64,000 nucleotides of DNA from Gemmatimonadota bacterium (GTDB taxonomy: Bacteria > Gemmatimonadota > Gemmatimonadetes > Gemmatimonadales > Gemmatimonadaceae), in contig DAHUXM010000034.1 of the NCBI GenBank assembly GCA_027307165.1, positions 124,001 to 188,000 of the forward strand, in the 5' to 3' direction. The position numbers and the translations under genes are program-made. The notes below the pieces were generated by a model that saw only the letters and a list, made by a program, of their open reading frames with translations, did no database searches and was not told the origin of the DNA. Numbering within the stretch: position 1 is the first letter of the stretch; each line of letters begins with the position of its first letter. Positions 585 through 36,634 of this stretch are shown piece by piece.

Positions 585-1111
585 GGCGTAACCCTTGTGG
601 ATGCTGTCGCAGCAGCGGTTATAGCCGCCTGTTTGATCGCCTGCAATGACTGAGTAGCCGGGACCATTCCCGCCGACCGGGCAGTCGCCATATGGGCCAG
701 TGCACGAGAGCGCGCCAGCACACGGTCACAGATCAAGCGCGCCACTTTGTCGTACTCGTCGGATAGCGTGACCTGACCCGTGGCGAGCGCTATGTCGCGG
801 ATCGTGAGCTCGTGCGAGTCGGCTTCCGTGCCGGTCGCTACACCGTTGGCGTCTGTCTCGTGGCCCGCGATCGTGTACATCACGCCTTCGGTCAATGCGT
901 GATCCCTCGGGTAGAGTCCCACGACCGCGTATGTAGTAGCGCCCCCGTCCTGTGGATCGCAGAGATACAGTCGCTCGTAGGGTTGGAGCGTGGCGGGGCG
1001 CTGTGCCCCTGTGATCTCAGTGTATGGTCCGGGCCATGTCTCGCCCGGCCCCGGATGCACGGTGAGCGGCGTCCATGTTTTGAGCGTTGGGATTTTTAGT
1101 GGACTTGTCAT
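581..1111 (-). CDS. Hypothetical phage protein downstream of the tail protein (176 aa)
   Basis: Start set at 1111, where ATG overlaps the TGA of the large tail gene by four bases (ATGA); a longer reading to 1273 would run far into that gene and is less likely. The N-terminal half (through about residue 95) is rich in Pro, Gly and Thr and reads like a beta-structured domain; the C-terminal third (from about residue 100) is helical and Ala-rich. No family was recognised. Position and coupling suggest a tail-tip or fibre-assembly role (inference only). Confidence 0.65.
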   Translation of the reverse strand: MTSPLKIPTLKTWTPLTVHPGPGETWPGPYTEITGAQRPATLQPYERLYLCDPQDGGATTYAVVGLYPRDHALTEGVMYTIAGHETDANGVATGTEADSHELTIRDIALATGQVTLSDEYDKVARLICDRVLARSRALAHMATARSAGMVPATQSLQAIKQAAITAAATASTRVTP

Positions 1112-1530
1112 GCAGGCACCTTGTTGTGTGAGAGGATGCCGCGCAGCACGTAGGTGTGCGCGCCCTCGACTTCGATCACCATCACCGGCCCCATGCCCGC
1201 ATCCTCGATATGGCTCACGACGCCCGGAACCGTTCCGGCCAGCTTCATTCCTTGCCGCAAACTGAACACACACATCTTCACCACTTCGCGCGCGTTATCG
1301 GGATTCTGGACATACACCGGATGCGTGGGGCTTGCGATGATCTCGCGGCCATCGGTCAACACCAGTCGCGCGCGGCCGGTACGTGCAATCCGTTGAACGT
1401 GCGACACCTGATGCACACCCCACTCGCCCGTCGCTTCGTGCGCGGTCCGGACGAGATCGCCGACAGAGAGATCGCCTGCGCGCCGTTCCGTGCCGTCCGC
1501 AAGCAATATCGGCTCGTCGGGATCGGCGCA
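1108..1530 (-). other. Hint (bacterial intein-like) domain within the tail protein
   Basis: Residues 1256-1395 of the tail protein. Block A begins with Cys1256 in ATCADPDEPILLADG; block B is GREIIASPTHPVYV with His1325; the end reads VVSHIEDAG, HTYVLRG and SHN, giving the conserved His1390-Asn1391 pair. The residue after Asn is Lys, not Cys, Ser or Thr, and only four residues (KVPA) follow. Canonical splicing is therefore unlikely; known bacterial intein-like domains with this end cleave at one or both borders. No homing-endonuclease insert is present. Cleavage could release the upstream tail protein from its own C-terminal domain during maturation (inference). Confidence 0.8.
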
Positions 1531-4500
1531 TGTTGCACCGCCGCCACCACCAGATGACGCCGGCGTAACCTGTCCCGCGAAGTAGATCCGATCGTCGTTG
1601 ATCACATCATGGATCGAGTTGGACGCGAGCCAGCCAGACGACCCCGAGCCGCCCGCGAACGTGTCGTCGTAGCAATACACGTAGACCGGCTGACCCGCGG
1701 GCCACGTGCCGAGCGACCCCGAGTTATACGCGATGACGGACGATCCAATCTGCGCGTCGTGCTGTTGCACAGATACAGACGTACCGCTCGATGTAACGGG
1801 CATGATCGGCGTCGTCGTGCCGTGGGAGAATTGCAGCACCGTTCCGAACGGGCCGGCCGACGCGAGCATCTTGAGGTTCTTCTGGCCTTGGAGCCGCGCG
1901 TTCGAGTCGAGCGCGGAGTATCCGCGCGCGCCGCCCTGCGCCGTTGTCGGCGACATTTCCTGAATCGTCACGTCATCGAAGAACGCCTGTCCCGTGATAT
2001 TGCCGGTATAGCCAAGCTGCAGCCGGAACCGGAGTATCGTCGTTACCGTATTGAGCCACAGTGAGTGGACGAAATGCCACTGGCCATTATCGTTCCCCGT
2101 TCCGCCCGTCGCGTGAATGCCGACCGCTGGGATGGTGGAACTCGGGTCGTCGCCGACTTTGTCGAACATCGTAAACCCCGCCGACGGCTGTCCCGGAGCA
2201 ACACCGCCGAGATTCAGGACTGCCCCATATCCCGCGCCGGTCAAACCACCGCAATTGATCCACGCGGAGAGCTTGTACACGCGCCCTGCGATCACCGGCA
2301 CATCCTGATATGCGTACGAGTCGTTCGCCGTAACGGAGTTGTCAATCAACCACGACCGAGAGCCGAGCTTCTTAACGGCGTCGTAAGACTTCATCGTGTT
2401 GCCGTTCTCGAATGTCCACCCGACGAGGCCGCCCAACACTCCGTCTTCCGCGTTGCCGTTGGCGAGCAAGTTGGGGCCTGCGGTTCCCATCGAGGCTGCG
2501 AGCACGTCCGCGTTTACCGATGCAGCTCCCGTCGAGCGATACAACGCATTCGGCCGCCCCGAGTCCAGATAAGCGAGCTTCGTACCGCCGAAGGTGAGTC
2601 CGTTGTTGATCGAGTCGGCATTGTCAGGATCGCCGGAGAGTGGTTTGGCATACATCGTGTTGACTGCGCGACCGCCCGAATCCTGCGCACCGCTCGACGC
2701 TTGACCGGTGGTGTTGGAGAGGAACGGAATGAGCCCCTGAACCTGTGTCTCGCTGACATAGGTATCCGATCCGACGGTGACGACCAGCTTGAACCACTTC
2801 GAGTTTTTGACATTCGGCGAAATACTCGCACTGAACCCCGCGCCAGACAGCGGATTGGACGAATTGGATCCCGAGTACGTCGCCGTCCCCGAATACTGAC
2901 CCCGGCTGTAGCCCTGATAGATCGCCCACGCATAGGTCGGCGGCAGATTCGTCGCAGTCGCCGTGATCGTGACGGGTGAGACCGTGTCGTCGGTCTGATT
3001 GTTGGTGAGCGAAGGGACGAGTGAAGCGGACGGAGCCGTGCTTCCCGACTGAGCGGGAATTGTCACGACGTTGCTTACGGTCTGCGAATCTTTAAGACCC
3101 GTGAATGCGTAAACCCTGTCAGCACCGCCTGGAGCGTTTCGAGCGACTGTGATCGGTGACGCTGAGGGCGCTCCTGCTGTCCCCCCATCGATCGATACAA
3201 GCACGCCATCCCCTGACCACGCAATCGAATAGGACGATGCGCCGGGTGTCACCGTGACGGTCAGGTTGGGCCCGAAAGCCGTCTTGTCCTGATTCAGGAT
3301 CGTCCGCTGGATCGTTTCAGAGCCGCCACCCGTAAGTGCGGCCTTGAACGTTGCAGAGGCCGGAACAGAGTTGAACGCTGCTCTGTTTACAGTGACCACC
3401 TCGCCACTCGGGACGGTCTTTGGCGTATCAGCTGCGATAGCTCCGACACTTGAGCCTGTTCCCGTAGTGCCGTGAAGCGTGACCGTGATAACGGGTGTGC
3501 CACCACCTGTAGCGGGATTGGATGCCGTCACAGTGAAGGGCTGCGTGGTCGCGGTTTGCGTTCCCGGTGTGACAGTAAGGTCAGGAGTGGTGACACCTGC
3601 ACCCAATGGAGAGATCGTGACCGTGTCACCCGTCACCTGTCCGTTCTTGAGCCCCGAGAACGCATAGGTGTGTTCCGATCCGTCGCGAGCAACAGTGATG
3701 GGGGAGGCGCTTGGAGTAGTGTACGCCCCACCATCGATCGAGAGCGTTACGCTGTCTCCACTCCACGCGATCGAGTACGACGTCACGCCCGGAGTGGGGG
3801 TTACCGTCAAGTTGGGCCCCGTGAAATCAACAGAGCTTGAGCCGTACCTGATCCACGTGCGGAAGCGCCCCTTGGGCTGACCTCCCAGATCGATCGTCGA
3901 CTTGAGTACGCCGCCAGAGTACGACTGAGTTATCGCAGTAACACCACCCAACTGATCGACGCTGTAGTGGATCCCGTTCGCCAGCATCTTGCCGTAGTCG
4001 TACAGCTGAGCAAACCAGAACGCATTGGTGGTGAATCTCTGCTGGAGCCACGGCGTTTCCAGATCGGAGCGCATGGCATCGGCCATCGCTTGAGCTTGCG
4101 TGGCACTGAGCGTGACCGTTCCCGCGACATCGACCCGCATGTACCGGAGTCCATACCGGGTGAGCGAATCGGATGCTGTAAACGCACTTGCCGAGAACGT
4201 GGGAGAGCTACCGTCCGACTGAGCTACAAGCGTGCAACCCGTAGTCCCGTTGAACGCGCTCACTTTGAACAACGCGCTTCCGACCAGGATGCAATCGCCA
4301 TTCGAGAGGACGCCCGACTGCGAAACGGAGAACGTGGCCGATCCAGACGTACAGGACACCGTTCCCGAGAGTGCAGCGGGAGAACTTACGTGCTGCTGGC
4401 CCAAACTTGCATCGATGTAGTACAGATCGATGTAGGTTCTGACACCTGATATGTCGATCGAGTTGAGCGGGATAGCCGTGTATTCGCTCGATCCAATCGT

Positions 4501-5295
4501 CCAATCCGGAGTCGTCGCGTTCCGTGGCGGCTGGATCAGCGTCAGGCGATTGACGTTGGAGCTGTCGTACTTGTAGTGCACCACGAGACCGGCAAGCTGC
4601 ACCAGTTTGGTGATTGCATCCATCAGGCTCCCCGTCGCCGGACGGTAGCCCATGTTGACGTAGAACGCGGGTGAGTATCCGGGAGAGTAGAGCGTGATAC
4701 CACTCGATCCCGTTACAGACAGCCCGCCCAAAGAAATGTCCGCCCCGACCCCAAGCGTATCATCGATCAACTGCTGGATCACGGTTTCGACGAGTACGGG
4801 GCCACTGGAACAGTAGGTGCGGACTATCCTGATCTGCGCATCGAGCAAGGCCGCTTCCATCCCGCGGCCCGTCAACCGGATTTCGCTTGGACGCTCCTGC
4901 GGGTCGATCAGATCGATGTATCCCGATCCCGTTTCCTTCCAATCGCCTGACGATGGTGTCGAGCCCTGTGCCTTTGTCGCAGTCGATGCGCGCCATTTGC
5001 GCCGGACGTCCAACATGGGAGCGTATGCGCCTGCTCCGTTCCGGTTGATCGTCGAATCTTCTCTTAGCGGACAGAGCGAGAGCGTCCCGGTATCTCTCAG
5101 CAAGGACGCCTGAAACGACATCGTGTTGCCGTCGATATTCTCGGACGTCTGCCACGAGTTGAGCCAGTCTGGTGTACTCAATCCCGTAGATACGTCAACC
5201 CACGACCCGTCAGGATTCGTGATCTCGAGCTTCCCGAACGACGCAAGGGTTGAAGCGCCTGCCTGCGTTCTCTCGCCAGTGGTTGTGGTGCGCAT
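1108..5295 (-). CDS. Large phage tail protein with Ig-like repeats, carbohydrate-binding-like domain and C-terminal Hint domain
   Basis: 1395 residues, placed two genes after the tape measure, the usual site of tail-tip and host-recognition proteins. Residues 1 to about 490 look like the tail-hub or attachment part. Two similar units of about 78 residues follow (about 492-568 and 673-753), each opening with GPNLTVT and containing SYSIAWSGD and SASPITVAR, so they are probably Ig-like beta modules. Residues about 938-1113 resemble a jelly-roll carbohydrate-binding domain (ANGNAEDG near the start, FFDDVTI near the end). A Gly-rich linker leads to Cys1256 and a 140-residue Hint domain ending in SHNK. 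It probably binds the cell surface. Three bases separate it from the upstream gene. The domain calls are from pattern, not alignment. Confidence 0.85.
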   Translation of the reverse strand: MRTTTTGERTQAGASTLASFGKLEITNPDGSWVDVSTGLSTPDWLNSWQTSENIDGNTMSFQASLLRDTGTLSLCPLREDSTINRNGAGAYAPMLDVRRKWRASTATKAQGSTPSSGDWKETGSGYIDLIDPQERPSEIRLTGRGMEAALLDAQIRIVRTYCSSGPVLVETVIQQLIDDTLGVGADISLGGLSVTGSSGITLYSPGYSPAFYVNMGYRPATGSLMDAITKLVQLAGLVVHYKYDSSNVNRLTLIQPPRNATTPDWTIGSSEYTAIPLNSIDISGVRTYIDLYYIDASLGQQHVSSPAALSGTVSCTSGSATFSVSQSGVLSNGDCILVGSALFKVSAFNGTTGCTLVAQSDGSSPTFSASAFTASDSLTRYGLRYMRVDVAGTVTLSATQAQAMADAMRSDLETPWLQQRFTTNAFWFAQLYDYGKMLANGIHYSVDQLGGVTAITQSYSGGVLKSTIDLGGQPKGRFRTWIRYGSSSVDFTGPNLTVTPTPGVTSYSIAWSGDSVTLSIDGGAYTTPSASPITVARDGSEHTYAFSGLKNGQVTGDTVTISPLGAGVTTPDLTVTPGTQTATTQPFTVTASNPATGGGTPVITVTLHGTTGTGSSVGAIAADTPKTVPSGEVVTVNRAAFNSVPASATFKAALTGGGSETIQRTILNQDKTAFGPNLTVTVTPGASSYSIAWSGDGVLVSIDGGTAGAPSASPITVARNAPGGADRVYAFTGLKDSQTVSNVVTIPAQSGSTAPSASLVPSLTNNQTDDTVSPVTITATATNLPPTYAWAIYQGYSRGQYSGTATYSGSNSSNPLSGAGFSASISPNVKNSKWFKLVVTVGSDTYVSETQVQGLIPFLSNTTGQASSGAQDSGGRAVNTMYAKPLSGDPDNADSINNGLTFGGTKLAYLDSGRPNALYRSTGAASVNADVLAASMGTAGPNLLANGNAEDGVLGGLVGWTFENGNTMKSYDAVKKLGSRSWLIDNSVTANDSYAYQDVPVIAGRVYKLSAWINCGGLTGAGYGAVLNLGGVAPGQPSAGFTMFDKVGDDPSSTIPAVGIHATGGTGNDNGQWHFVHSLWLNTVTTILRFRLQLGYTGNITGQAFFDDVTIQEMSPTTAQGGARGYSALDSNARLQGQKNLKMLASAGPFGTVLQFSHGTTTPIMPVTSSGTSVSVQQHDAQIGSSVIAYNSGSLGTWPAGQPVYVYCYDDTFAGGSGSSGWLASNSIHDVINDDRIYFAGQVTPASSGGGGGATCADPDEPILLADGTERRAGDLSVGDLVRTAHEATGEWGVHQVSHVQRIARTGRARLVLTDGREIIASPTHPVYVQNPDNAREVVKMCVFSLRQGMKLAGTVPGVVSHIEDAGMGPVMVIEVEGAHTYVLRGILSHNKVPA

Positions 5296-5298
5296 CGA

Positions 5299-5664
5299 CT
5301 ATGAGGCCGTCACGAACTTGACCGCCAATGTCAACTGTCGAACGAATGGCGAGATGCCGGGGATGAGCACGCCCGATGTCAGGGCAACGCTACAGGTCAC
5401 AGTGGCAAGGGAGTTGTTGAACAGATCTCCCTGGCATGGGATCTGGGCCATGTTGCCGATCGCTGCACGAAGGAGAGCCTCGTCCGTTGCGTCCAAGTAT
5501 CCGGTCACGACGGTGAATGTTCTTTTCACGGCACGGATACTGTTCCGCTCCGATCCACTCACTGAGTCGGTTACGTCACCTACGAATACGGGAGGCCCCT
5601 CCTGTGCCGAGACGTAAGGCACATCGACCTGCGAGCCGCCGACGTTCAGGATGATCACGCTCAT
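5299..5664 (-). CDS. Small phage tail protein downstream of the tape measure (121 aa)
   Basis: No named family is certain. The protein is largely beta-like (VSGSERNSIRAVKRTFTVVTGYL in the first half), as expected for distal tail components of siphoviruses. Its start overlaps the tape-measure stop by four bases and its stop is three bases before the large tail protein, so all three are co-translated. A role in distal-tail or tail-tip assembly is inferred from place only. Confidence 0.65.
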   Translation of the reverse strand: MSVIILNVGGSQVDVPYVSAQEGPPVFVGDVTDSVSGSERNSIRAVKRTFTVVTGYLDATDEALLRAAIGNMAQIPCQGDLFNNSLATVTCSVALTSGVLIPGISPFVRQLTLAVKFVTAS

Positions 5665-8180
5665 GATGGCATCAGCTCCATCGTTTCAGCGACAGTCGTC
5701 CCCATGCCACCGATTCCGTTGCCGATGTTGCGGATCGCCTTGACCACAGCCTTTGCGGTCGCTTCTGGGTCATTGGAAGCGGGGACGGTGATGTTGATCG
5801 TGTTGCCTGTTACCGTGGCACCCGTAGACGTCGAGCTCGTTGTCGTTGGAGGTGTGATTCCGGGGAACGATGCCGGAGTTGAGAACTGACCGAAATACCT
5901 CTCGGCGAAGAATCCCGTAGGAGCGTTCGCGAGCTGAGTGATTGCCTGATTCGCGAGCTGAGTCTTTTCGGCAAGCTGCACCTGAGCCAGAGATGCCATG
6001 TACGCGGCATCCCGTCCGGCCAGAATTGCAGCGTTCATTTCTTCCTGCTGCTTGACAGCCAAGTCTTCCAAGTCAGCCTGATACGAGAGCCCCTTTGCTC
6101 TATCGAGCCGAGCGGCAAGGCTCTCTTTGTCGAAGGTCTGCTGTATCGCGTACTGCTGCGTGATCTGCTGTTTCTGCTTGGCGAATAGCGCGTCGTCTGC
6201 TGCAAGCTGTTGATTGCGTTCGGTCTCCCGCTTCTTGCCTGAGAGCGCGCTATTGATCTGACTCTTCCGCGCGTCGTCTGCTGCCTGTGCTGCTGCAAGC
6301 TGACCGCCCAGCGCGTCGTGATTCACAGAAGCTGAAAGGGTCGCGATCATTGACTTGATCGACTCGGACGCTTCCTGTATTGCCCTTGCGGCGTCGTGCG
6401 ACTGACTCCCAAGCCCCAGGATCTGCTTACCCAGTGACGCGACAGAGAGGACCGCTTGCGCGTCGGCTATCGGATTGTGGAATCCCTCTGCTGCTGCCGA
6501 CTTTACGTTGTCTGCTGCGTTCGCTGCCGTGTTCAGGATGTTGGCTATCTTCCCGCCCTTGGGACCGCCGAACAGGTTTGCGGCATCGGCTCCCGTACGG
6601 AGTCCGCTTGTGATCTTGTCCGTGAGTGACGTCTGGTCAGACTTGGGTGCGTTGGCGCCGATGTCCTTCAGTTGCTTGTTGATGTTCTCCAACACTATCT
6701 GGAGCACCTTGCCCGACGCGCCCATTCTCTGCAGTTGATCGATGACAACGGCGCCGGACTGGACAGCAGATTTCCGGAGATTGTCCATCACGGTGCCTTT
6801 GCCTTCGTCTACCGGCCCCTTACCTTCGGCTGCGTTGATCGCGTTCCGAAGCGTGATTCTGTCCTGCGTATCCCGTGCAGCGCTTACGGCGGCGTCGAAC
6901 GCCTTCATGGCTGGCGATCCGTTCGCGAGCAATTCAGTGGGAACGGATTTGAGACTTGCCCCGCCTATGAACTTGGCGCGCGCGGCTATCGCTCTATCGG
7001 CTTCCTCGACTTCCTTCTTGTACCATGTAATGCTCGTCTCGACCGACTGTTGAACTGCTACAGATCCCGTCGTGATCGCGTCCAGGTACGCGGGCTTCTT
7101 CTCACGCCCCTTCCGTTCCTTATGGAACAGGGCGTCACCCAGCGATTGTGTGTCACCGATCAACGCCGCGCGTCTGACATTGTCGGTCTGCGTCTTACCT
7201 AAGCGAGCAATCTCAGCGACATCGCTCTTGTAGAGTGCGAGCGCGCGCTGACGCTCTGCGTGCGTCGCGTTGTTGCTCTTGACAAGGAGCGCTAGATTGC
7301 CCGCGTAGTCCCGCTCTGCGTCGCCTCTCTGCTGATAGTTGAGTTGTGATTTGTATTGCTGTGCGTCGAACAGTTCTGCGTTGGCCGCCGCGAGTGCTTT
7401 CTCCGCGTTCGTTACCGCGACGGGAGAGACGGTACGCACCGATGCGCCACCGAGACTGGCATCAGGGTGCGAAACGCCTCGCTGAGCTTTGGCCAGCGCT
7501 GCCTGCGCGTCCGCGATATCCTGCGTGGCCTTGGCGAGCTGCAGATCACCAACGGCGACTTGAGCGGTTATCGACGTCGCGTGCATCTTCTTCATCGCGT
7601 CGCTGACCTTGTCGCCCAGCTCGTCGGCCTGCTCGCCCAATAGCTTCCATCCGCCGATGATTGCGGCAATACCGAGTCCGATCCCGACCGTCCACGGGCC
7701 ACCTAAAAACAGGTTGCTCAGTATGCTCCCAAAGCGCCCGGTGATTGTGGACACTCCAGCCAGTCGTGCATCCAACGCGCCGAATGAATAGGCAAGTCGG
7801 CTCAACCCAGGCAGCGTCTTGGTCGTGGCGGTGGCAACGCTTTCGAGGCTCGCCGCTGTCCGAGCGACATTCTCCCGGTACGCAGCGGTCTCCGCTTTCT
7901 GGAGCGTCATGATGTAGCGTGCGGTTGCCTCTTCGGCCTTCCGTGTGGCTGCGGCGTTCGTGACGGCCGCACTACCGAGCCGGGCAACTGCTGCCTGCGT
8001 TGCTGCACTCTGCGACGCAAGGAATTGCTGTGCCTTCGTGAGGCCAGTGGACGACCCTATAAGGCGAGCGTTCGCGGCTTCGCCTTGCGTCGCCATCTTG
8101 TCTAGAGCAGCGCCGGTCTCCTGCGCGGCCTGAACTGCCTGACCGTTCTGGATCGTGAGCTTTAGAGTTGCGGTGTCCAT
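5661..8180 (-). CDS. Phage tail tape measure protein
   Basis: 839 residues, the length determinant and scaffold of the tail tube. The sequence is dominated by long Ala-, Gln- and Lys-rich helices (for example residues 15-130 and 190-330), with one strongly hydrophobic stretch at about 160-190 (LFLGGPWTVGIGLGIAAIIG) typical of tape measures, which insert into the host membrane during DNA entry. A second helical block covers about 590-740. At roughly 1.5 angstrom per residue, the usual rule for siphoviruses, a tail of about 120 nm would be expected (inference). Its start touches the stop of the upstream tail-chaperone frame, the classical order chaperone then tape measure. Confidence 0.9.
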   Translation of the reverse strand: MDTATLKLTIQNGQAVQAAQETGAALDKMATQGEAANARLIGSSTGLTKAQQFLASQSAATQAAVARLGSAAVTNAAATRKAEEATARYIMTLQKAETAAYRENVARTAASLESVATATTKTLPGLSRLAYSFGALDARLAGVSTITGRFGSILSNLFLGGPWTVGIGLGIAAIIGGWKLLGEQADELGDKVSDAMKKMHATSITAQVAVGDLQLAKATQDIADAQAALAKAQRGVSHPDASLGGASVRTVSPVAVTNAEKALAAANAELFDAQQYKSQLNYQQRGDAERDYAGNLALLVKSNNATHAERQRALALYKSDVAEIARLGKTQTDNVRRAALIGDTQSLGDALFHKERKGREKKPAYLDAITTGSVAVQQSVETSITWYKKEVEEADRAIAARAKFIGGASLKSVPTELLANGSPAMKAFDAAVSAARDTQDRITLRNAINAAEGKGPVDEGKGTVMDNLRKSAVQSGAVVIDQLQRMGASGKVLQIVLENINKQLKDIGANAPKSDQTSLTDKITSGLRTGADAANLFGGPKGGKIANILNTAANAADNVKSAAAEGFHNPIADAQAVLSVASLGKQILGLGSQSHDAARAIQEASESIKSMIATLSASVNHDALGGQLAAAQAADDARKSQINSALSGKKRETERNQQLAADDALFAKQKQQITQQYAIQQTFDKESLAARLDRAKGLSYQADLEDLAVKQQEEMNAAILAGRDAAYMASLAQVQLAEKTQLANQAITQLANAPTGFFAERYFGQFSTPASFPGITPPTTTSSTSTGATVTGNTINITVPASNDPEATAKAVVKAIRNIGNGIGGMGTTVAETMELMPS

Positions 8181-11474: not shown

Positions 11475-11849
11475 TCAGGCAGCCCCAATCACGCGGTAGA
11501 GGATGGGCGTGCCGTCAGGAGCCAAGGCATCGACGGGGAAGGACACCGCGTATTTGGTTCCGGCGAATGTGAACGGGTCGCTCTGCTTGGGATCGAACGC
11601 CATTCCTTGTGCCGCGACTACCAGGACGATGGAATTGGCGAGCACAAGTCCACCCGCTTCCATCTTCGCCAACTCTCTAAACGTGGCGCGTACTCTGATC
11701 GCACTACTGGTAGAGGTCGTGACTACGGGAACCATATTACCCGACGCTTCGTCGACGCTGTTCACCGTGCGGGTGAATACGACAGTAGATCCAGCATCAG
11801 CTATCGCCTCTGCTGCGTCGATGATGTCGTCCGAGTATTGGGTAGTCAT
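11475..11849 (-). CDS. Head-closure / head-tail joining protein (124 aa)
   Basis: Small, mainly beta protein with an N-terminal helix (DDIIDAAEAIADAG) and a C-terminal strand pattern (PILYRVIGAA) like the stopper proteins that follow the adaptor in siphovirus operons. Three bases from the upstream adaptor and two bases from the downstream neck gene. Assigned from order and size; no conserved motif proves it. Confidence 0.65.
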   Translation of the reverse strand: MTTQYSDDIIDAAEAIADAGSTVVFTRTVNSVDEASGNMVPVVTTSTSSAIRVRATFRELAKMEAGGLVLANSIVLVVAAQGMAFDPKQSDPFTFAGTKYAVSFPVDALAPDGTPILYRVIGAA

Positions 11850-11852
11850 GGC

Positions 11853-12413
11853 TTACGCCCGCTCCACCGTAGTGGGCTCGGACGCCATCGTGAGCGGATA
11901 GATTTCGCGCCAGACTGACGGGTAAACGCGGAGACCAAACCGACGTTCTGAGACCGACACGTACTCAGTCGAGATGACGTCGATCTGTTTCTTTGCGATG
12001 TTGGCGGTCTTGTCGACGCCCCATATATCGGATGTGCCGGCTTTCAGGATTTCCAAGGCGAGCATGACGCAAGCCCGAATCATCCGGACCGGGATCTTCG
12101 TGTTGTCGAGGTAGAATCCCCACTGACCTGAAACCGTGTACGCCTCCGGCCCCAACCGGCTCTGGCCGTAATCAGGGTCGTAGACTCCATATCTGGGCCA
12201 TGCCAACGCTTGATCGAAGCTCGATTTGATGCCCTGATACTCGATCACGTTGAGCAAGGACGTAGCGTAGATGAGCGCTTGCGTCTGAGCGGTTGCGTCA
12301 GACCCCCACGCCGAGCTATTGGGCGTGGCGTCGATGATGGCTTGCGCGTCGGCCACGCTCGCGAATGCGTTAGATGCTACGCCGCCGGCCGTCGCGTCGA
12401 GTGTGAGAGGCAC
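11853..12413 (-). CDS. Head-tail connector (adaptor), DnaT-like family (186 aa)
   Basis: N-terminus SNAFASVADAQAIIDATPNS followed by a helix ending in WGSDATAQTQALIYATSLLN fits the phage adaptor family often annotated DnaT-like; the name is historical, and in phages these proteins sit between portal and stopper. A Trp-Pro-Arg segment (ALAWPRYGVYD, residues 69-79) is typical of the family. Start is GTG at 12413, three bases after the upstream small gene. The last part (ERRFGLRVYPSVWREIYPL) would contact the neck (inference). Confidence 0.75.
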   Translation of the reverse strand: MPLTLDATAGGVASNAFASVADAQAIIDATPNSSAWGSDATAQTQALIYATSLLNVIEYQGIKSSFDQALAWPRYGVYDPDYGQSRLGPEAYTVSGQWGFYLDNTKIPVRMIRACVMLALEILKAGTSDIWGVDKTANIAKKQIDVISTEYVSVSERRFGLRVYPSVWREIYPLTMASEPTTVERA

Positions 12414-12416
12414 GGC

Positions 12417-12590
12417 CTACCGCCCCTGCCTTTGCTTCCGCGACATCTGCGGGCGATGCTTGTCGCGCCCGGAATCCTGATCGCCTTCCTGTTCGCGTGC
12501 AGCGTCGAGCTCTCTGACAGCGAGCGGATGCTTGTCGTCGATCAGCACTTCACGGTCGAACTTGGTGATGTACATCTTCACTACTGCCAT
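12417..12590 (-). CDS. Small phage protein after the coat gene (57 aa)
   Basis: ATG at 12590 with GAGAG eleven bases upstream; 57 codons ending three bases before the adaptor start. The sequence begins MAVVKMYITKFDREV and ends in a very charged tail (SGRDKHRPQMSRKQRQGR). Its size and place between coat and adaptor match the short unknown proteins often found there; the basic C-terminus could bind DNA or the capsid wall (inference). Confidence 0.65.
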   Translation of the reverse strand: MAVVKMYITKFDREVLIDDKHPLAVRELDAAREQEGDQDSGRDKHRPQMSRKQRQGR

Positions 12591-12699
12591 GTGCGTAGGC
12601 TCTCGTGCTTGGCGTGAAAGCGTTCGTGCGAGGGAGGATCCTGGCTACTATGGCGGGTGAAGGATTTCACTCCCTCACCCGCGTCACTTCAAACCGCTG

Positions 12700-13977
12700 T
12701 TACGCGGCGTACCCGCGGACTGCGAGGTTCGGGTCGAGCGTCTTGACACCGAACAGGATGTCGAGCGCGACCTTGACCGTTGAGCTGTCGCCCACATAGA
12801 ACAGGCGGCTCCGGAGGGAGAGACCGGTGATCGGATCCGAGATCGTTGCGATCTTGGCCCCGAGCTGGTTGCCCATGTCGGAGAGCGGGGCCGTTGCGAG
12901 GCAGAAGGCATTCGAGTGGAATGCGATGTTCTGCGTCTTGGCTGCACCACCCAGGAAGATCGTGACGACCTCCGTTCCGGCCGTCGCTTTCTTGAGGCCG
13001 GGGGTGATGGTGATCACGAACGCCGATCCGTCGGCATCCGTCGCGTCGGCCGCGATGTTGTACTGCTGCGGGTCGCCGGCGATCGAGAGGATGTCGCCGG
13101 CCTTGACGGTGATCCCTGCCGTTACAGCCGAGATCGAGATCGATGTCGCGCCGACAGCGTTCGCGCCGTCCACGGTTCCGGTCGAGTCAGCCGCAACGCC
13201 CGAGGTGTGGGACGGCGCGTTCTGATTGGCGAAGGTGTCGAAGCCGTACAGCGTGCCGAGCGAGCCGTCGCGGAGACCCGACGCCTGCGGGTTCTGGAGC
13301 ACGGTCATGGCGTTCTGAAACGCCATCTGCTCGTTCGATCCGATCTGCAAGTGCAGAAGGGATTCGTCACGCATCGGAACCTTGTTGTCGAACATCACCT
13401 TCTTGAGCTTCGTGATGTCGGAAAGGGCCGGCGTCGCGGACATCTGCGTGTACCACGGGATCTGCTTGTAGAGCCCGTTCAGCGTCTGATCGACGATGTC
13501 GGCCAGTGCCACAGCTGCGGGTCGGATGTGGTCGCTGATGATCTTGTCACTGGTGAGCGAGAGATCCTTGTCGGTCAGCGAGAACTTCACTTCCTTCCAC
13601 GTATTGAGCGTGATCGCTACGGACTCGGTGGCGAGATTCTGATCGGCCGAGGGAGCGTCAGCAGCTGTGAACGTGGAGGGCCGGCGAACCTGAATCGTAT
13701 CGCCCAACACCTGCGGATTCGGGTTGTAGCCCTTGTAGACTCGACCCGACATACCGAGCGCCTTCTCCAACTGGATCAGCGCTTCCTGGGCGAAGAACGT
13801 CTCGTTGTAGTTGCCGAGCGTGTTGGTTGCGCCCATTACGGCCAAGCCCTTCAGCCCGACAGCCACGCCAACGCCGGCAGATACGCCGGTCGTGAGTGCG
13901 TGCAGGTGTGCGCCGAAGATGCAGAGGATGAGAGCAGGCAAGAGAAGAATCGCCGCCCACTTTAAAGCGTTACGCAT
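12700..13977 (-). CDS. Major capsid protein, P22 coat (gene 5) family, with hydrophobic N-terminal extension
   Basis: From residue 48 the protein follows the P22-type coat pattern: NTLGNYNETFFAQEALIQLE, then VYKGYNPNPQVLGDTIQVRRP, and an inserted beta domain near residues 270-350 with AGDILSIAGDPQQYNI, like the I-domain of that family. The start chosen here (ATG 13977) has GGAG eight bases upstream, whereas the alternative ATG at 13836 (MGATNTLG) has only a weak site. The longer form adds 47 residues with a strongly hydrophobic stretch (WAAILLLPALILCIFG, residues 7-22). The extension is odd for a coat protein; it may be cleaved, or it may serve membrane-associated assembly. The coat call is firm, the start is not. 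Confidence 0.88.
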   Translation of the reverse strand: MRNALKWAAILLLPALILCIFGAHLHALTTGVSAGVGVAVGLKGLAVMGATNTLGNYNETFFAQEALIQLEKALGMSGRVYKGYNPNPQVLGDTIQVRRPSTFTAADAPSADQNLATESVAITLNTWKEVKFSLTDKDLSLTSDKIISDHIRPAAVALADIVDQTLNGLYKQIPWYTQMSATPALSDITKLKKVMFDNKVPMRDESLLHLQIGSNEQMAFQNAMTVLQNPQASGLRDGSLGTLYGFDTFANQNAPSHTSGVAADSTGTVDGANAVGATSISISAVTAGITVKAGDILSIAGDPQQYNIAADATDADGSAFVITITPGLKKATAGTEVVTIFLGGAAKTQNIAFHSNAFCLATAPLSDMGNQLGAKIATISDPITGLSLRSRLFYVGDSSTVKVALDILFGVKTLDPNLAVRGYAA

Positions 13978-28973: not shown

Positions 28974-29950
28974 GCTGCCACCCCAGGCGCGTCCTGAAGC
29001 AGTTTCGCAACCCTCTCCTCGTACCGGGCCGACTCGCCCTGCTTCATGCCTCGTAGCGTCATCCACGGGGCCACAATCCGCAGCTCTCGCTTGACTCTCT
29101 CGGGGTCTTTGATCTTGTGCTCGGCTGCCAGCTCATCAATTCGTGCGTCGTGCTGCTCGATCGGCAAAACCTGCGAGAATCCGTGTTCGACGTAGAACCT
29201 GATCAGACGGGCGGCGTAGGCTGTGGGATTCTGCGCCTTTGCATCACGGCTGGCACCCCCGAACGTCGCGGTGAACTTGGGTAGCGAGAGGAATTGCGGT
29301 TTGGTGGCGCGGAGGTACACGCCCAATTCGGCGGCAACCCGCTCGATGCCGAACTTGTCGACGATCGATGACAGCATCTTGGCTGCACCCGTTGGGGCTT
29401 TCGCTTCGGGAAACACTTCGGCCCATACCCGATTGATCTCTGCCATCCACGGCGCGGGCTTGCCCCGCGTCCGTCCCGAAGGGGTAGGGGTTTGTTGTTT
29501 GTTCTTAGTTGGTAATGGAGTAGGTAACGGAATGCTTTCGTTCGGCTTTACGTCGGCTTTGCCGATTGAAAGCTCCGGCTTTTCCGAATTAAAGCCGCCG
29601 CTTTCCGTTTCATTACCTACGGCTTTCGCCGGACGGCCTCCTTTCTTGCCGTTCTCGGACATCTTCTGGCGGTATTCTTCCTGCTTGGCGCGCTCTTTTT
29701 CGAGGCGTTCGTTGAACCATCGGCCATCCCTGCAAGCGAAGCATTCTTGCACTACGGGCCATGCACGGACCAGAACCGATTTCTTCACGCGACACCAACG
29801 TGCGAGCGTCTCGATTTCGTACAAAAATCCGTGCTGATTCCAATCCAAACACAGCAACCAGATGTAAACGTGCGTCTGTTCAGGCGTCATAAGCCCCGGC
29901 TTTCCGCCCATGTAGTCATCGGGGTAAAACTGGAAAGCGGGAGACTTCAC
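28970..29950 (-). CDS. Replication initiator-type protein, DUF1376 domain (326 aa)
   Basis: Start GTG 29950 (GTGA overlap). Residues 1-90 match DUF1376: SPAFQFYPDDYMGGKPGLMT, then YIWLLCLDWNQHGFLYEIET, a winged-helix module typical of phage O-like replication proteins. A Lys-rich helix (EEYRQKMSENGKKGGRPAKA) is followed by a disordered Pro/Thr part and a helical C-domain (about residues 165-315). The gene is directly upstream of the DnaB-like helicase, as for initiator-helicase pairs. Confidence 0.82.
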   Translation of the reverse strand: MKSPAFQFYPDDYMGGKPGLMTPEQTHVYIWLLCLDWNQHGFLYEIETLARWCRVKKSVLVRAWPVVQECFACRDGRWFNERLEKERAKQEEYRQKMSENGKKGGRPAKAVGNETESGGFNSEKPELSIGKADVKPNESIPLPTPLPTKNKQQTPTPSGRTRGKPAPWMAEINRVWAEVFPEAKAPTGAAKMLSSIVDKFGIERVAAELGVYLRATKPQFLSLPKFTATFGGASRDAKAQNPTAYAARLIRFYVEHGFSQVLPIEQHDARIDELAAEHKIKDPERVKRELRIVAPWMTLRGMKQGESARYEERVAKLLQDAPGVAA

Positions 29951-31971
29951 GCAGCCATGACCTCGCGCTCGACGCTGTAATTTGCCGCGACTATCGCTGC
30001 AGCCATGTCCGGGCAAACGCTATTGCCGATCATCCGGACCTGCGCCGTCTTGTTCATCGCGACACGGTCGCCTGTGTTCGGATCGATCCCGTATTCGAGG
30101 ATGTATGCGTCGTTAAAGCCTTGCGCGCGGGCGAGTTCGCGCGGCACCAACATCCTCATCCCGATGTCGGTGATGACGTATTCCGCGCCTTCGACCGTCA
30201 CCAGCCCAAACCGCTCCTTGCTCGTCACTGTGCGCATTGGATCGAACAGCGTCGCGCCCTCTTTTTCATTGCCGTAATAAACAGCGAGGAAGGCCGCTAC
30301 CTCGCGTGTGTGGCCCGGAACGCCGCCGTCTTCGAGACGCCGAGCGTTGCCGCGATCGCCTGATACGTCAGGCCCCGCGTGCGCAGACCCTTCGCTCTCC
30401 GCGCGATTGCGGCGGGAATGTTCGTGCGTGAACGCAGCCCGGTTCTGTATGCGTGGAGCTGATTCTCGCTCCGCGTGACCAGTTCCAGGTTCGCCGGAGA
30501 GTTGTCTGTCTTCACTCCGTTCCGATGATTGGGCTCCATACCGTCCGGAATCGGACCGCGCAGGATCGTCCACACAAGGCGGTGCGCCCATACGAGATGC
30601 TGCCGGGAGTCCAGACAGACCTTGACGAGCAGATACCCGCTCTTCGCGCGCGTCTCGACTCGCCTCGGTGCTGCGAGTGACATGGTGTTCATGTTCCGGA
30701 GTTTCCATACGGTGCCGTCCGGTCGCACCTCGATCACGCCCATCCTGACAAGAGTCAGCGCGGCTTCCATCGCTTCCATGTGTGTGCTCCAGTGTTGCTG
30801 TAACGAGTGAGTGATGATCGACTGATGTGACAGTGGCCATCGGCAAGTCGAGTTGTGATCCCACCACGCCGGTGTAATGTTTCGCGAGGAATGCAGCCAC
30901 CAGCGCGTGCTTGCCGCCGCCACCAACTACGGTCCCGAGCGGTTGGTGCAGGTCGAGCGAGCGCGGCGACTGGCCCGCTCCGTTGTTCCGGTGCTTGTCC
31001 TCGCCGTATCCGGTCTGGATCAGCGTCGGCGCGATGAGCGCTCTTTCGCCGCGGTGCGCCCCCGTGATGGTCGACATCGGGGCTTCGAGCGATTCAATGC
31101 GGTCCGACCCGTGATGCGTCAGCGGGACGGCGTAGGGTGTGACGACCATATGGTGCCCGCCAGTCGTGACGGTGGGCAATGGATCCGTAATGCTCGTTGC
31201 TGCGTGGCCGCTCGTATTCACCACGATGAAGGGGCGCGGCGATTCGATCACATACCGGCGGATGCCACGCGCGATGCGCCGGAGCGTGTTCTCCGCGAGT
31301 GGCTTCTTGCGCTCGAATATCGACGGACACGGAATCGACCAGTCGATGCACTCGGCTGCGGTGCGCCACGGGAGCGCGCGGCCCTTGCCATGCGTCGGCT
31401 TGGGCCACACGATCGGCTGACCGTCGCGACGGGCAATGAGGAACAAACGCTTCCGGATCGTCGGCGCACCGTAGTCGCAGGCCCTCAGCTCGCGATGCTC
31501 GACGACGTAACCGAGCCGGCGAAGTCTTGCGGTAAAGCGGCGGAACGTATCACCACGACGCAACTTGTCCGGCATCCCATCAGGGCCGAGTGGCCCCCAC
31601 GTCTGGAATTCCTCGACGTTCTCCAACACGATCACGCGCGGACGCACGGCCTTCGCCCACCGACAGGCGACCCACGCCAGGCCGCGAATCTTCTTGGATA
31701 CAGGCTTGCCGCCCTTGGCCTTGCTGAAATGCTTGCAGTCTGGTGACAGCCACATGAGGCCTACCGGACGACCCGCGCATGCTTCGACGGGATCGACGGC
31801 CCAGACATTCTCGCAGTAGTGCTTCGAGTCCGGATGGTTCGCCGCATAAAGCGCGATTGCTTCGAGATCGTGATTGATCGCGATGTCCGGAGAGCGGCCT
31901 GTTGCCATTTCGATGCCGAGCGACGCGCCGCCACCACCGGCGAACGAGTCGACAATGATCTCGCGGGTCAT
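29947..31971 (-). CDS. DNA (cytosine-5) methyltransferase, interrupted between motifs VIII and IX
   Basis: 674 codons. Motif I FAGGGGASLG (10-19), motif IV SPDCKHFS with catalytic Cys79, motif VI ENVEEF (117-122), motif VIII RKRLFLIAR, and, after the interruption, motif IX RELARAQGF and motif X IGNSVCPDMAAAI. Residues about 398-555 are unlike the rest: polar, charged and full of Arg, Ser, Glu and Gly; they are the alternative-frame reading of an HNH gene placed between 7-base repeats. Without the 474 bases the frame rejoins as LEHTREVAAFL, giving about 516 residues. The target-recognition region is repeated (HALVAAFLAKHYTG and EVAAFLAVYYGN). It probably protects phage DNA from restriction. 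Confidence 0.88.
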   Translation of the reverse strand: MTREIIVDSFAGGGGASLGIEMATGRSPDIAINHDLEAIALYAANHPDSKHYCENVWAVDPVEACAGRPVGLMWLSPDCKHFSKAKGGKPVSKKIRGLAWVACRWAKAVRPRVIVLENVEEFQTWGPLGPDGMPDKLRRGDTFRRFTARLRRLGYVVEHRELRACDYGAPTIRKRLFLIARRDGQPIVWPKPTHGKGRALPWRTAAECIDWSIPCPSIFERKKPLAENTLRRIARGIRRYVIESPRPFIVVNTSGHAATSITDPLPTVTTGGHHMVVTPYAVPLTHHGSDRIESLEAPMSTITGAHRGERALIAPTLIQTGYGEDKHRNNGAGQSPRSLDLHQPLGTVVGGGGKHALVAAFLAKHYTGVVGSQLDLPMATVTSVDHHSLVTATLEHTHGSDGSRADSCQDGRDRGATGRHRMETPEHEHHVTRSTEASRDAREERVSARQGLSGLPAASRMGAPPCVDDPARSDSGRYGAQSSERSEDRQLSGEPGTGHAERESAPRIQNRAAFTHEHSRRNRAESEGSAHAGPDVSGDRGNARRLEDGGVPGHTREVAAFLAVYYGNEKEGATLFDPMRTVTSKERFGLVTVEGAEYVITDIGMRMLVPRELARAQGFNDAYILEYGIDPNTGDRVAMNKTAQVRMIGNSVCPDMAAAIVAANYSVEREVMAA
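30297..30779 (-). CDS. HNH homing-type endonuclease nested in the methyltransferase gene (160 aa)
   Basis: Reads in a different frame within the methyltransferase gene. Starts at ATG 30779 with GGAG six bases upstream. The N-terminal part (WKLRNMNTMSLAAPRR, then GYLLVKVCLDSRQHLVWAHR) is a NUMOD-like strand pattern. The HNH core is VWAHRLVWTILRGPIPDG (His66), MEPNHRNGVKTDNSPANLEL (His85, Asn97) and ENQLHAYRTG (His109). The end (LTYQAIAATLGVSKTAAF, residues 137-154) is a helix-turn-helix. These are the marks of free-standing or intron-borne HNH homing enzymes. Its limits agree within nine bases with a 474-base in-frame insertion. Confidence 0.85.
   Translation of the reverse strand: MEAMEAALTLVRMGVIEVRPDGTVWKLRNMNTMSLAAPRRVETRAKSGYLLVKVCLDSRQHLVWAHRLVWTILRGPIPDGMEPNHRNGVKTDNSPANLELVTRSENQLHAYRTGLRSRTNIPAAIARRAKGLRTRGLTYQAIAATLGVSKTAAFRATHAR
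30306..30786. repeat. 7-base direct repeats flanking the HNH insertion
   Basis: The heptamer gtgtgtg (plus strand) occurs at 30306-30312 and 30780-30786, 474 bases apart, a multiple of three. Excising one repeat plus the enclosed sequence restores an uninterrupted methyltransferase frame. The repeat is simple (alternating GT), so chance is possible, but the fit with the HNH gene borders is close. Confidence 0.55.
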
Positions 31972-32828
31972 GCTGCCACCTTCCTGATTCCAGCATCCGT
32001 TACAGCGCTCAACAAGAGCGAAAGCATATCATTCCCGGCATATGTTCCCTTGGGTGATACCAACGTCGTTTCCTTGCTCGGATAGGTGATCAATGCTGTT
32101 CCTGGTACCGAGAGCAACGCGATGATGTCGTCCAGCAGGATCATCGGCGCGGCTTCCGGTACCATCGGTGGCGCGGTGTACGGCGCGGGAATCTTCGGCT
32201 CGCGATGCGTCGGCAGTAGCGCGACCTTCGGCGCCGGGATCTCGATCGGCTTCGGCCATTCGAACTTCCGCCGCGCGCTTCGATATTCCGGCACCTTGTC
32301 GCCGAATTGCGCACACGCCAAGCGCTGAAGCCCTGGCGGGGCCAGCTCTTCGATCGTCATGCCTTCGTCGCCCGGTGCGTCCACGACCGGTGCCGCTGCC
32401 ACGGGGCGAACCTTGCGAGGTCGTCCGGGTCCACGCTTGACGGTCGGCGCGAAGGGCTTGTACTCGATCTTCTTCCGAGGCACCGCCGTCTGATGCAACG
32501 GATGGACGCAATGCGGGGTGGTGCAACTCGTCCGAATGTTCGCACCGTCTGGTACTTCGCATCGGTGATACAGGATCCACGCAAGCCGGCCAGCGCCGAT
32601 CAGTACCGACCCCATCGTAAAGAGCCCCATATCCTTGTTGATGAGTCCCGCCCACTTCCAACACGCGTTCGGATCATCCGGGGATGGCTGCTCCAACTTC
32701 GATAGGAACTTGTCCAGGACGCTCCGATCTACCGTGCGCGGGCCGTGAGCCTTACGAAGGGTCGCGGTGAATGGCATGAACCCAGCGAATGCGTTTCCGT
32801 ATCCAGTATCAGGGATATTAGAGATCAT
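31968..32828 (-). CDS. Phage DNA-binding protein with degenerate HNH-like zinc loop and AT-hook (286 aa)
   Basis: Start ATG 32828 (ATGA). Residues 56-112 resemble an HNH/His-Cys loop: ACWKWAGLINKDMGLFTMG, RLAWILYHRCEVP and IRTSCTTPHCVHPLH; the fold-forming Cys and His are kept, but the catalytic pattern is incomplete. Residues 131-140 (KRGPGRPRKV) form an AT-hook. A Pro-rich part follows, and the end is a small helical domain. It may target DNA beside the methyltransferases on both sides, or be a decayed homing enzyme reused as a regulator. Confidence 0.65.
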   Translation of the reverse strand: MISNIPDTGYGNAFAGFMPFTATLRKAHGPRTVDRSVLDKFLSKLEQPSPDDPNACWKWAGLINKDMGLFTMGSVLIGAGRLAWILYHRCEVPDGANIRTSCTTPHCVHPLHQTAVPRKKIEYKPFAPTVKRGPGRPRKVRPVAAAPVVDAPGDEGMTIEELAPPGLQRLACAQFGDKVPEYRSARRKFEWPKPIEIPAPKVALLPTHREPKIPAPYTAPPMVPEAAPMILLDDIIALLSVPGTALITYPSKETTLVSPKGTYAGNDMLSLLLSAVTDAGIRKVAA

Positions 32829-35062
32829 GCTGCACTCTCGGACTGCGAAAACAGATCGGTTGCCCGATGCTCGCATGCGTTCGCGAGATTCCGTGCAGCC
32901 TGCCCGAAGTACGAACCTTTCAACTCGATCCCGAGGAAGCGCCGGCCTTCTTCCAACGCGACAACGCCCTCCGATCCGATGCCCGCGAACGGAGATAGAA
33001 CAACGTCGCCCGGATTCGACCACAGCATCAACGCGCGCCGGATCACTTCTAGTTGCAGCGGGCAGATGTGCCGTTCGTCTGCGTTCTCTCTGGCGCTCCG
33101 GTATTGGAGTGTGTCTTGTGGGTCAATGTCCATCCAGACCGGACTCGCGTAACGCTGCCAGAGCGACACGGGGAATTCTTCCGGCGTGTGGCTGATTGGT
33201 TCCGCGTTCTCGCCCGGCTTCCGCATCGTCACCAGATAGTCCGCGATGCCCTGGCGGGACATTGACGAATCTTTCCGGATCGTCTTGTGCAAGAGCCCAA
33301 GCGCTTTCGTGCGCTGCATTGCGGTTACCGGGTCTTTCCAGATCGCCACTTCGGAGTGGTATACGAACCCCACTCCCTGAAACGACTTGATTAGCTGGCC
33401 CCGGAAATCCGTCAGTCCGATCACGCCATCCCGCGCCTTGCTCGTGGGCAGGTTCATGCAATGGAACGACACGAGTCTGCCCGGCTTCAGGACGCGATAC
33501 AGCTCCTTTATCACGAACGCGAAGTGCGCGAAGAACGTCCCGTGATCCAGACAGTTCCCCAGGTCTCTATCACTCGCCGAATACGTGTAGAGTGACGCGA
33601 AGGGGGGCGAGAATATCGAGAAATCGACCGATGCGTCGGGCTGCTCTCGCAACACTTCCACGCAATCGCCGCGGTAGAGCGTCCATCGGTCGCCGCGTTC
33701 GTCCTGCTTCACGTCGCGCACGTATTCGTCAGACGTTCGGACTGATCCCTGTATCGCTTCACGCGATAACTGGCGGGTGTGTTCCAGCATCGACGTTGCC
33801 ATTCGTTCGGCGTCCGCCTCCTTGCGCCTAATGTTGGCGACTACGGCCCCTTCCGTCTCGGCTGTGATGCAATGCACCGTGACGGGTTCGGTCTGACCGA
33901 AGCGCCAGCAACGACGGACGGCTTGGTAATACTGTTCCCATGAATCGGAGAGGCCCACAAAGGCCATCTGGTGGCAATGCTGCCAGTTCATTCCGAACCC
34001 GCAGATTGAGGGCTTGCTTATCAGAACGCGGATGTCACCCCGCGCGAATGCCAGCATCGCAAACTCTTTCTTGTCGGCTGGATCTGATCCCGTGACTTCG
34101 ACGGCATCCGGTATCGCTTTCGTGAGCGCTTGACTCTCGCTGTTCAACTGGCACCAGATGATCCATGATCCAGGTGTGTTGTTTACCAGTTCGGCACAAG
34201 CGTCTACGCGCTCGGATATTGATGCGCGGCGGGCTTTGATCCTCTCCTGTAGCGTGGATGCCGGGGTCGCGAATAGCTCGCCATCAGACGGTGGTGCATC
34301 CACAACAACAGAGCGAACGTCGCACGGCGGCAGTTCGTAACCTTCGTCACCATAACCAAGGTCAGAAGGCTTGCGGATCATTACGGCCCATGATGTGATC
34401 CACTTCCAGAAGTCGGCTTCCGCGTGACCTTTCAGTCGCCAGTTCTGTGTTTCTCCGCCGTCATGGATGAAGAACGTCGCCAGCATTTCGGCGCGGCTCA
34501 TGATCCCTAGAAACTCTGCGTGCGTCCCCAACTCCATGAAATCGTTCGGGGCGGGAGTAGCCGTGCAGCACAAACGGTAAGGTGTGTTGCGGAACGCCTC
34601 GGTCAGCATCGTCCGCGTCGCGCCGTCGAACGATTTCAGGATCGAGGATTCGTCCAAGACAACACCGTCGAAGTCCGCAACATCGAACGAATCCAATCGC
34701 TCGTAATTCGTGACGGTAATGCCGTCCTGTATCTCGCTCGCGTTCCGTGCGTAATGCGCGGTAATGCCGAAGCCGGGAGCCTGCGCTACTGTCTGTTGAG
34801 CAACAGCAAGGGGCGCCAGCACCAAGACGCGCCCTTCTGTGGCTGCCATGATCTGACGCGCCCATTCGAGCTGGATCGGCGTCTTGCCCAATCCGCAATC
34901 GGCGAACACGGCAGCGCGCCCACGACGCAACGCCCACGACGTTATGTCAGCCTGAAACGGAAACAGTGGAGCGGTGAAGTCTGATACTGAATCGAGGCCG
35001 GTAGCGGGACACGCCGGCACCTTCGATGCGAGGAAGTCAGCGTAATCGAGTGTAGCGCTCAT
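32825..35062 (-). CDS. Helicase-DNA methyltransferase fusion protein
   Basis: 745 residues. Residues 1 to about 440 are an SNF2-type helicase: Walker A FADCGLGKT (53-61), DEAD-box equivalent GVVLDESSILK, motif III CCTATPAPND, and motif VI FGMNWQHCHQMAFVG with QAVRRCWRFGQ. The C-terminal part (about 465-745) is an N4/N6 DNA methyltransferase of the beta class order: catalytic motif IV IFSPPF first, and the AdoMet site LSPFAGIGSEGV near the end. No nuclease domain is seen. Such phage fusions are known; the helicase may move along DNA to methylate it and block host restriction (inference). Confidence 0.88.
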   Translation of the reverse strand: MSATLDYADFLASKVPACPATGLDSVSDFTAPLFPFQADITSWALRRGRAAVFADCGLGKTPIQLEWARQIMAATEGRVLVLAPLAVAQQTVAQAPGFGITAHYARNASEIQDGITVTNYERLDSFDVADFDGVVLDESSILKSFDGATRTMLTEAFRNTPYRLCCTATPAPNDFMELGTHAEFLGIMSRAEMLATFFIHDGGETQNWRLKGHAEADFWKWITSWAVMIRKPSDLGYGDEGYELPPCDVRSVVVDAPPSDGELFATPASTLQERIKARRASISERVDACAELVNNTPGSWIIWCQLNSESQALTKAIPDAVEVTGSDPADKKEFAMLAFARGDIRVLISKPSICGFGMNWQHCHQMAFVGLSDSWEQYYQAVRRCWRFGQTEPVTVHCITAETEGAVVANIRRKEADAERMATSMLEHTRQLSREAIQGSVRTSDEYVRDVKQDERGDRWTLYRGDCVEVLREQPDASVDFSIFSPPFASLYTYSASDRDLGNCLDHGTFFAHFAFVIKELYRVLKPGRLVSFHCMNLPTSKARDGVIGLTDFRGQLIKSFQGVGFVYHSEVAIWKDPVTAMQRTKALGLLHKTIRKDSSMSRQGIADYLVTMRKPGENAEPISHTPEEFPVSLWQRYASPVWMDIDPQDTLQYRSARENADERHICPLQLEVIRRALMLWSNPGDVVLSPFAGIGSEGVVALEEGRRFLGIELKGSYFGQAARNLANACEHRATDLFSQSESAA

Positions 35063-35331
35063 GTCGCACTTCCTGACAGTCTCGCCGGCTGCGTCAGATG
35101 ATCAGAACACACCCCACGATCAACGCTTTTTGCTCTTTCACTCTGTACGTGTCTTAGATGTGATTGAGCGTTATCGAATGCTATTCTTGCATCCAATAGT
35201 TGAGGGGATAGTTGATCGTAGGGAAGGGATGTTACGAGCTGATTGAGATCAGCGTGTGTGATGGATGCAGCCTGTTTTGCTGCGATCCATGCTGCGTCAT
35301 CAGATGAGGGAATCGGGAAGGGGCCTTTCAT
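35059..35331 (-). CDS. Small phage protein, helical (90 aa)
   Basis: ATGA-coupled at both ends. Helical pattern (SDDAAWIAAKQAASITHADL then LLDARIAFDNAQSHLRHVQS). No family recognised. It sits directly upstream of the helicase-methyltransferase gene and may be an accessory of it. Confidence 0.55.
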   Translation of the reverse strand: MKGPFPIPSSDDAAWIAAKQAASITHADLNQLVTSLPYDQLSPQLLDARIAFDNAQSHLRHVQSERAKSVDRGVCSDHLTQPARLSGSAT

Positions 35332-36557: not shown

Positions 36558-36634
36558 GCCCACACCTTCACATTCCCGGCGGCAGTGAGCACGCTACGGA
36601 GGAAGAGATGGACTGCTACGAGGATGCGCTTCAC
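36554..36634 (-). CDS. Possible 26-residue phage peptide
   Basis: GTG at 36634 and TGA ending at 36554 give a 26-codon frame (KRILVAVHLFLRSVLTAAGN) that overlaps by four bases with both a frame ending at 36631 and the gene starting at 36557. Double coupling is the only support. The upstream frame ending at 36631 enters from comM and has no start in phage sequence, so its first part would lie at the other end of the prophage: the attachment point may cut a phage gene. Confidence 0.35.
   Translation of the reverse strand: MKRILVAVHLFLRSVLTAAGNVKVWA

Follow-up and report, generated by a model that had tools for sequence, protein, structure and literature searches.

Described Hint domains and the domain in the window

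A-type BIL domains have been described as a class without Cys, Ser or Thr at position +1 (PMC7664689, PMC7765530), and BIL domains, which lack this nucleophile, give mostly cleaved products (PMC7664689). In Tetrahymena, the BIL2 domain of the BUBL1 polyubiquitin locus releases the protein that precedes it and forms a Lys isopeptide bond without ATP (PMC8616854). Pretoxin HINT domains (PF07591) belong to the same superfamily and make up the C-terminal part of large secreted proteins. The hedgehog autoprocessing domain is also a C-terminal Hint domain, with a thioester that is attacked by an outside nucleophile; a sterol-recognition region is required, and the terminal His-Asn is not used.

The domain that we describe here closes a tail protein encoded in the window (the whole 64,000-nucleotide stretch analysed, which is a piece of a 497-kb contig in a 3.7-Mb bacterial genome). 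With the A-type BIL domain of Clostridium thermocellum (PDB 2lwy) it shares the Hint fold (Z 18.5) and the His-Asn end, and as in that class position 1 is Cys or Ser (here C1256), the domain ends in His-Asn (H1390-N1391) and no Cys, Ser or Thr stands at +1, which is Lys. It differs in closing a phage tail protein, in following a Gly-rich linker, and in having almost no C-terminal flank and a Lys at +1/+2 that is conserved in its family. The fold of Tetrahymena BIL2 is similar as well (PDB 6y75, 6tmm; Z 18.9-19.7), but that domain comes from a ciliate and is placed between two ubiquitin-like domains, and ligation by the phage domain is a proposal. Unlike the hedgehog domain (PDB 1at0; Z 19.7), the window domain has no sterol-recognition region behind it, as the protein stops 4 residues past Asn1391.

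Class 1 inteins (Ssp DnaB, Mtu RecA, Corynebacterium phage TerL) share the fold, Cys1, His and His-Asn with the window domain. However, they lie inside a conserved protein with a C-extein that opens with Cys, Ser or Thr, whereas only 4 residues follow Asn1391 here and the first is Lys1392; an internal insertion site, an endonuclease and the block-F Asp are also missing. Class 3 inteins have no Cys or Ser at position 1 and carry WCT and a block-F Cys, whereas Cys1 is present in the window domain and block-F position 4 is Val. In contrast to pretoxin HINT domains, no toxin domain follows, only KVPA, and the group-1 phage relatives introduced below score under the Pfam cut-off.

The domain is a member of the Hint (Hedgehog/intein fold) superfamily, based on a whole-domain alignment of an AlphaFold2 model with a mean pLDDT of 95.4. 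Using Foldseek and VIA-align, model residues 1-139 align with inteins, hedgehog and BIL structures (Z 18-20, rmsd 1.5-2.0), the named matches being the Ssp DnaB and Mtu RecA inteins, the hedgehog autoprocessing domain and BIL domains. When the family profile was compared with PDB sequences, the C. thermocellum BIL domain 2lwy (E 6e-18) came ahead of the Spl DnaX mini-intein (9e-18). We read the domain, with a probability of roughly 60%, as an appended C-terminal auto-processing domain of the A-type BIL kind on a phage tail tip protein.

The tail gene and its C-terminal module

Within the tail run of a prophage, the tail gene comes last among the large genes (Table 1). Upstream of it we recognised genes for the small and large terminase subunits, portal, head morphogenesis and scaffold proteins, a P22-type coat protein, head-tail adaptor, tail terminator, tail tube and tail assembly chaperone, followed by the tape-measure-like gene and the small gene in the Dit position. 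The stop codon of the tail gene and the ATG of the next gene share bases (ATGA). In the middle of the tail protein (window 3000-3850) there are two similar Ig-like repeats (ITVARDG.../ITVARNAPGG, GPNLTVT). Elsewhere on the prophage side, window positions 29947-38032 include a C-5 cytosine methylase and a fusion gene of a helicase and an N6-N4 methylase, and a host-type Mg-chelatase-like gene begins at 36608. To the left of the window (L150, G000:C37), the C-terminal part of the gene at 11762-13558 holds an extended array of nearly identical repeats of the AGEQ/ATGSAGE type.

Table 1. Features of the tail gene, its neighbours and the C-terminal Hint domain (positions in the window)
Feature	Position	Strand	Basis and remarks
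Next gene after tail gene	581-1111	minus	Without family match
Tail tip / adhesin gene	1108-5295	minus	ORF, 1395 aa, C-terminal Hint domain
C-terminal flank K1392-V-P-A	1111-1122	minus	Lys at +1, without Cys/Ser/Thr
Terminal His1390-Asn1391, predicted Asn cyclisation site	1123-1128	minus	TIGR01443 match
Hint (BIL-like) domain	1123-1530	minus	Residues Cys1256-Asn1391; family HMM, AF2, PDB folds
Block F His1380 (motif AHTY)	1156-1158	minus	Alignment; HTY was in the search pattern
Block B S1322-P-T-H1325	1321-1332	minus	His invariant in 33 phage C-terminal Hint domains
Cys1256, predicted N-S acyl shift nucleophile	1528-1530	minus	Directly after Gly-rich linker; invariant in 33 aligned domains
Gly-rich linker SSGGGGGAT	1531-1557	minus	Sequence; adjoins Cys1256; low pLDDT in 299-residue model
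Pre-Hint module	1558-1806	minus	Residues ~1164-1246; weak alignment with gpJ-like phage proteins
CBM_4_9-like (carbohydrate-binding) region, weak	2257-2472	minus	Residues 942-1013; Pfam 19.7 bits, below cut-off of 25.9
Conserved N-terminal region of tail protein	3826-5295	minus	Residues ~1-490; homologues in 3 other genomes of the phylum
Small tail gene (Dit position)	5299-5664	minus	Position only; without family match
Tape-measure-like protein	5661-8180	minus	Length and position; without clear family match

The first base of the Cys1256 codon is base 1530, the Asn1391 codon occupies bases 1125-1123, and the gene ends with KVPA and a TGA stop. An HMM built from 32 phage C-terminal Hint domains, with the window copy left out, matches the window domain at 91.9 bits (E 2e-24 at Z = 1e6). 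With the same HMM, 500 shuffled versions of the whole protein reached no more than 5.8 bits, and thus the match is far above chance. Curated intein models gave 25.0 bits for Pfam Intein_splicing (cut-off 35.8), 22.3 for TIGR01445 (cut-off 24.5) and 15.9 for TIGR01443 (cut-off 15.6). In the window copy, Val takes the place of the block-F Asp found in class 1 inteins and Ser that of the block-B Thr (as in some other phage members), and a Trp that is nearly invariant across the phage family is absent. Given these three departures, reduced activity is possible, and by its sequence the window copy could be slow or inactive. A first-pass annotation of this DNA had described a full Hint domain closing the tail protein with no splicing partner at its end. 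The closing position and the lack of a usable partner hold, and so does "full" for Cys1, the block-B and block-F His and the terminal His-Asn, but not for the block-F Asp or for block B, which reads S-x-x-H rather than T-x-x-H.

The domain might instead be a degenerate and inactive intein or BIL relic that is being lost, which we consider rather improbable. The weak matches to curated intein models would fit, as would the absence of a comparable domain from about 395 genomes of the phylum. In a search of these genomes for close relatives of the domain we found only a 71-residue match within a 1514-residue open frame, which we read, from the flanking frame, as a probable intein inside a UvrD/PcrA-type helicase. 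There are no close homologues of the window domain in the data, and a scan of viral contigs with this domain alone gave 12 pattern matches, none of them confirmed. The open frame, the core catalytic residues and the confident fold argue against a relic, as does purifying selection on the related phage domains (see below).

How the domain came to stand at the end of the protein is suggested by a homologue from a genome of the same class (L148), a 955-aa protein with 25% identity to residues 936-1227 of the window protein. It ends in ...GTPGGGTTLR after the pre-Hint module and has no Hint domain. Since this homologue stops at the Gly-rich linker, the Hint domain is an appended and optional module, and nothing behind it qualifies as a meaningful C-extein. 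In two homologues the N-terminal part makes up a complete short protein, of 442 and 453 aa; together with the end of L148, these indicate that nothing is missing behind the Hint domain and that no longer protein was interrupted. The tail protein without its Hint part found no match in the phage collection. The region directly before the linker can be aligned, weakly, with gpJ-like proteins (24-30% identity over the whole span); a model of the last 299 residues has low confidence before the linker, and no fold could be assigned to the pre-Hint module.

Canonical splicing of KVPA onto the tail protein by a true intein would agree with the whole Hint fold and with the presence of Cys1 and His-Asn. 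However, the +1 residue is not a nucleophile of the required kind, no homing endonuclease is present, and the Hint-less homologue ends at the linker. We consider canonical splicing extremely improbable, and rejected it on the sequence evidence of the +1 Lys and the Hint-less homologue.

Recurrence in phages and the lysine beside the terminal asparagine

In a fecal phage (L003) and in an IMG/VR contig (L004), gpJ-like proteins close with a Gly-rich linker followed by a Hint domain with GVLSHNIKQQEQLQ. The wider family was collected with a DNA pattern scan for HTY..G.L..HN in viral contigs, which returned at least 120 stretches. At least 45 closed frames end 2-27 residues past His-Asn, and in these the Hint domain opens with Cys after a linker that is Gly-rich in most; with L003 and L004, the C-terminal Hint domains number at least 47. 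The carriers include gpJ-like tail proteins (tail-fibre J matches) and, on our reading of the sequences, apparently gpI-like tail proteins as well, next to other proteins of tail type. At least five named genomes have the domain (three Sphingomonas, one Pyxidicoccus and one Myxococcus). A C-terminal Hint end is common to many unrelated phage tail proteins. With dozens of tail proteins carrying such an appendage, the arrangement is less special than the first-pass annotation implied. In the open-access literature, which excludes most subscription journals, we found no description of Hint domains at the C-terminus of phage tail proteins. On this coverage, BIL-like Hint domains as recurrent C-terminal appendages on phage tail proteins, together with their conserved Lys, appear to be a new form of a known kind of domain.

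Across 33 aligned phage domains, in a family with a mean column identity of about 36%, no variation occurs at Cys1, the block-B His, HTY or His-Asn. HTY, Gly, Leu and His-Asn were part of the scan pattern, whereas Cys1 was found by its position after the linker, so that only the invariance of Cys1 and the block-B His is independent. It is conceivable, although we think it unlikely, that the Hint domain stays uncleaved on the virion as a folded cap or binding domain, with the catalytic residues kept for structure. The relaxed intein residues of the window copy (Val for the block-F Asp, Ser for the block-B Thr, no Trp) are compatible with this, and a flexible linker would suit a distal binding domain. 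On the other side, Cys1, the block-B His and His-Asn are exactly what this divergent family keeps, and a structural cap would have no use for a Cys at residue 1 and a terminal His-Asn.

Recurrence also bears on the possibility, in our view very unlikely, that this is a pretoxin-type HINT domain whose C-terminal toxin was lost. HINT proteins of the polymorphic-toxin kind from Streptomyces plasmids match remotely (~30-32% identity, E 2e-4), and PF07591 matches weakly in phage relatives. However, given that a short end after His-Asn recurs in at least 45 proteins, the C-terminal arrangement is a stable state. Furthermore, PF07591 finds no match in 298 genomes of the phylum (G000 included), and no toxin-like gene was recognised right behind the tail gene.

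The residues that follow the terminal Asn were compared across the family. Among the matches listed, group 1 comprises 20 clusters at below 60% identity; 19 of them have a Lys at +1/+2, all 20 have one within +3 of His-Asn, and none has Cys, Ser or Thr at +1. Lys accounts for 1.9% of the Hint domains and for none of the tails beyond +3. Considering the non-redundant domains among the matches listed, Lys stands at +1/+2 in 29 of the 34 that lack a +1 nucleophile and in 1 of the 21 intein-like ones that have it (Fisher p 2e-9), statistics that are inflated by shared ancestry, yet adjoining positions vary freely. Given that the scan pattern stopped at His-Asn, Lys was not selected for. The association of a +1/+2 Lys with phage domains that lack a +1 nucleophile is new here. 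The Lys could act in thioester resolution or in Asn cyclisation, or it could simply have been inherited with the domain.

Two further sets of phage Hint domains were observed. A second C-terminal group has an LVHN end and other spacing (L021, L024, L060, L061, L077, L088, L101), with HN-SK in some members; the Hint domains of L061, L077, L094 and L101 come after REPNNARQP/PFTYQ-type repeats. In the other set, the BIL-like domains are internal (L009, L018, L019, L027, L036, L055, L071, L074, L100, L103, L115), with HN-K followed by ~100 to 2000 residues and often preceded by a Pro-rich stretch. If active, these internal domains would be expected to split large phage proteins into two pieces.

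Because the window domain has no close homologue, selection could be assessed only for related domains. Of 14 close pairs of such phage domains, 13 have a Hint dN/dS of 0.05-0.33 and the 14th is identical; the related phage domains are under purifying selection. Two pairs (L014/L098 and L024/L128) share nearly identical Hint DNA but have strongly diverged upstream parts, with the similar stretch starting ~100 and ~450 bases before the Hint domain and extending downstream. In these two pairs, the pattern is the one expected if upstream adhesins were swapped while the C-terminal end stayed constant.

Proposed processing and its implications

By analogy with other Hint domains, this domain probably cuts itself off, or ties the tail end to something, during tail maturation. 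We infer the cleavage reactions and their timing from the Hint family; a conserved fold alone does not prove cleavage in virions. In this scenario, the domain would fold and Cys1256 would take over the acyl group of Thr1255 in an N-S shift, with the help of His1325, leaving a thioester at the end of the flexible Gly-rich linker. Asn1391 may then cyclise, assisted by His1390, and free the KVPA end. No canonical branched splicing intermediate would form, because there is no +1 nucleophile. The thioester could be resolved by water or by an amine, for example that of the conserved Lys or of the N-terminus newly exposed on the released tail. The Hint domain would leave either way, and the mature tail protein would end at the Gly-rich linker, the natural end of the Hint-less homologue. 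The first-pass annotation, whose observation is confirmed, had proposed self-cleavage or linkage to a nucleophile, and this interpretation is partly supported. Thioester chemistry at Cys1256 and cyclisation of Asn1391 are what the conserved residues predict, and a linking reaction has its precedent in the Lys isopeptide of Tetrahymena BIL2 (PMC8616854). The further ideas of the first-pass annotation, a role at the cell surface and a diversified or armed adhesin, found no support.

Most likely, the purpose of such trimming would be the timing or end-processing of tail maturation; protecting the tail end is another conceivable purpose. Lys-assisted ligation instead of plain cutting is possible. 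More specifically, we tentatively suggest, as an unlikely alternative, that the thioester reacts with the conserved Lys beside the terminal Asn, or with a Lys on an adjacent tail subunit or on the host surface, which would create an ATP-independent isopeptide bond at the tail tip. If so, these phages would have a family-wide counterpart of the ubiquitin-like conjugation by BIL2 in ciliates.

An appended auto-processing domain, if active, would mean that self-cleaving intein-type domains shape the tail ends of many tailed phages, and the prediction of mature tail tip proteins from genes would change. It would also be one of few biological roles for bacterial intein-like domains, and a new source of small domains that form a thioester with no need of a C-extein nucleophile. 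The conserved Lys leads to the specific proposal that some phage Hint domains may ligate and not just cut.
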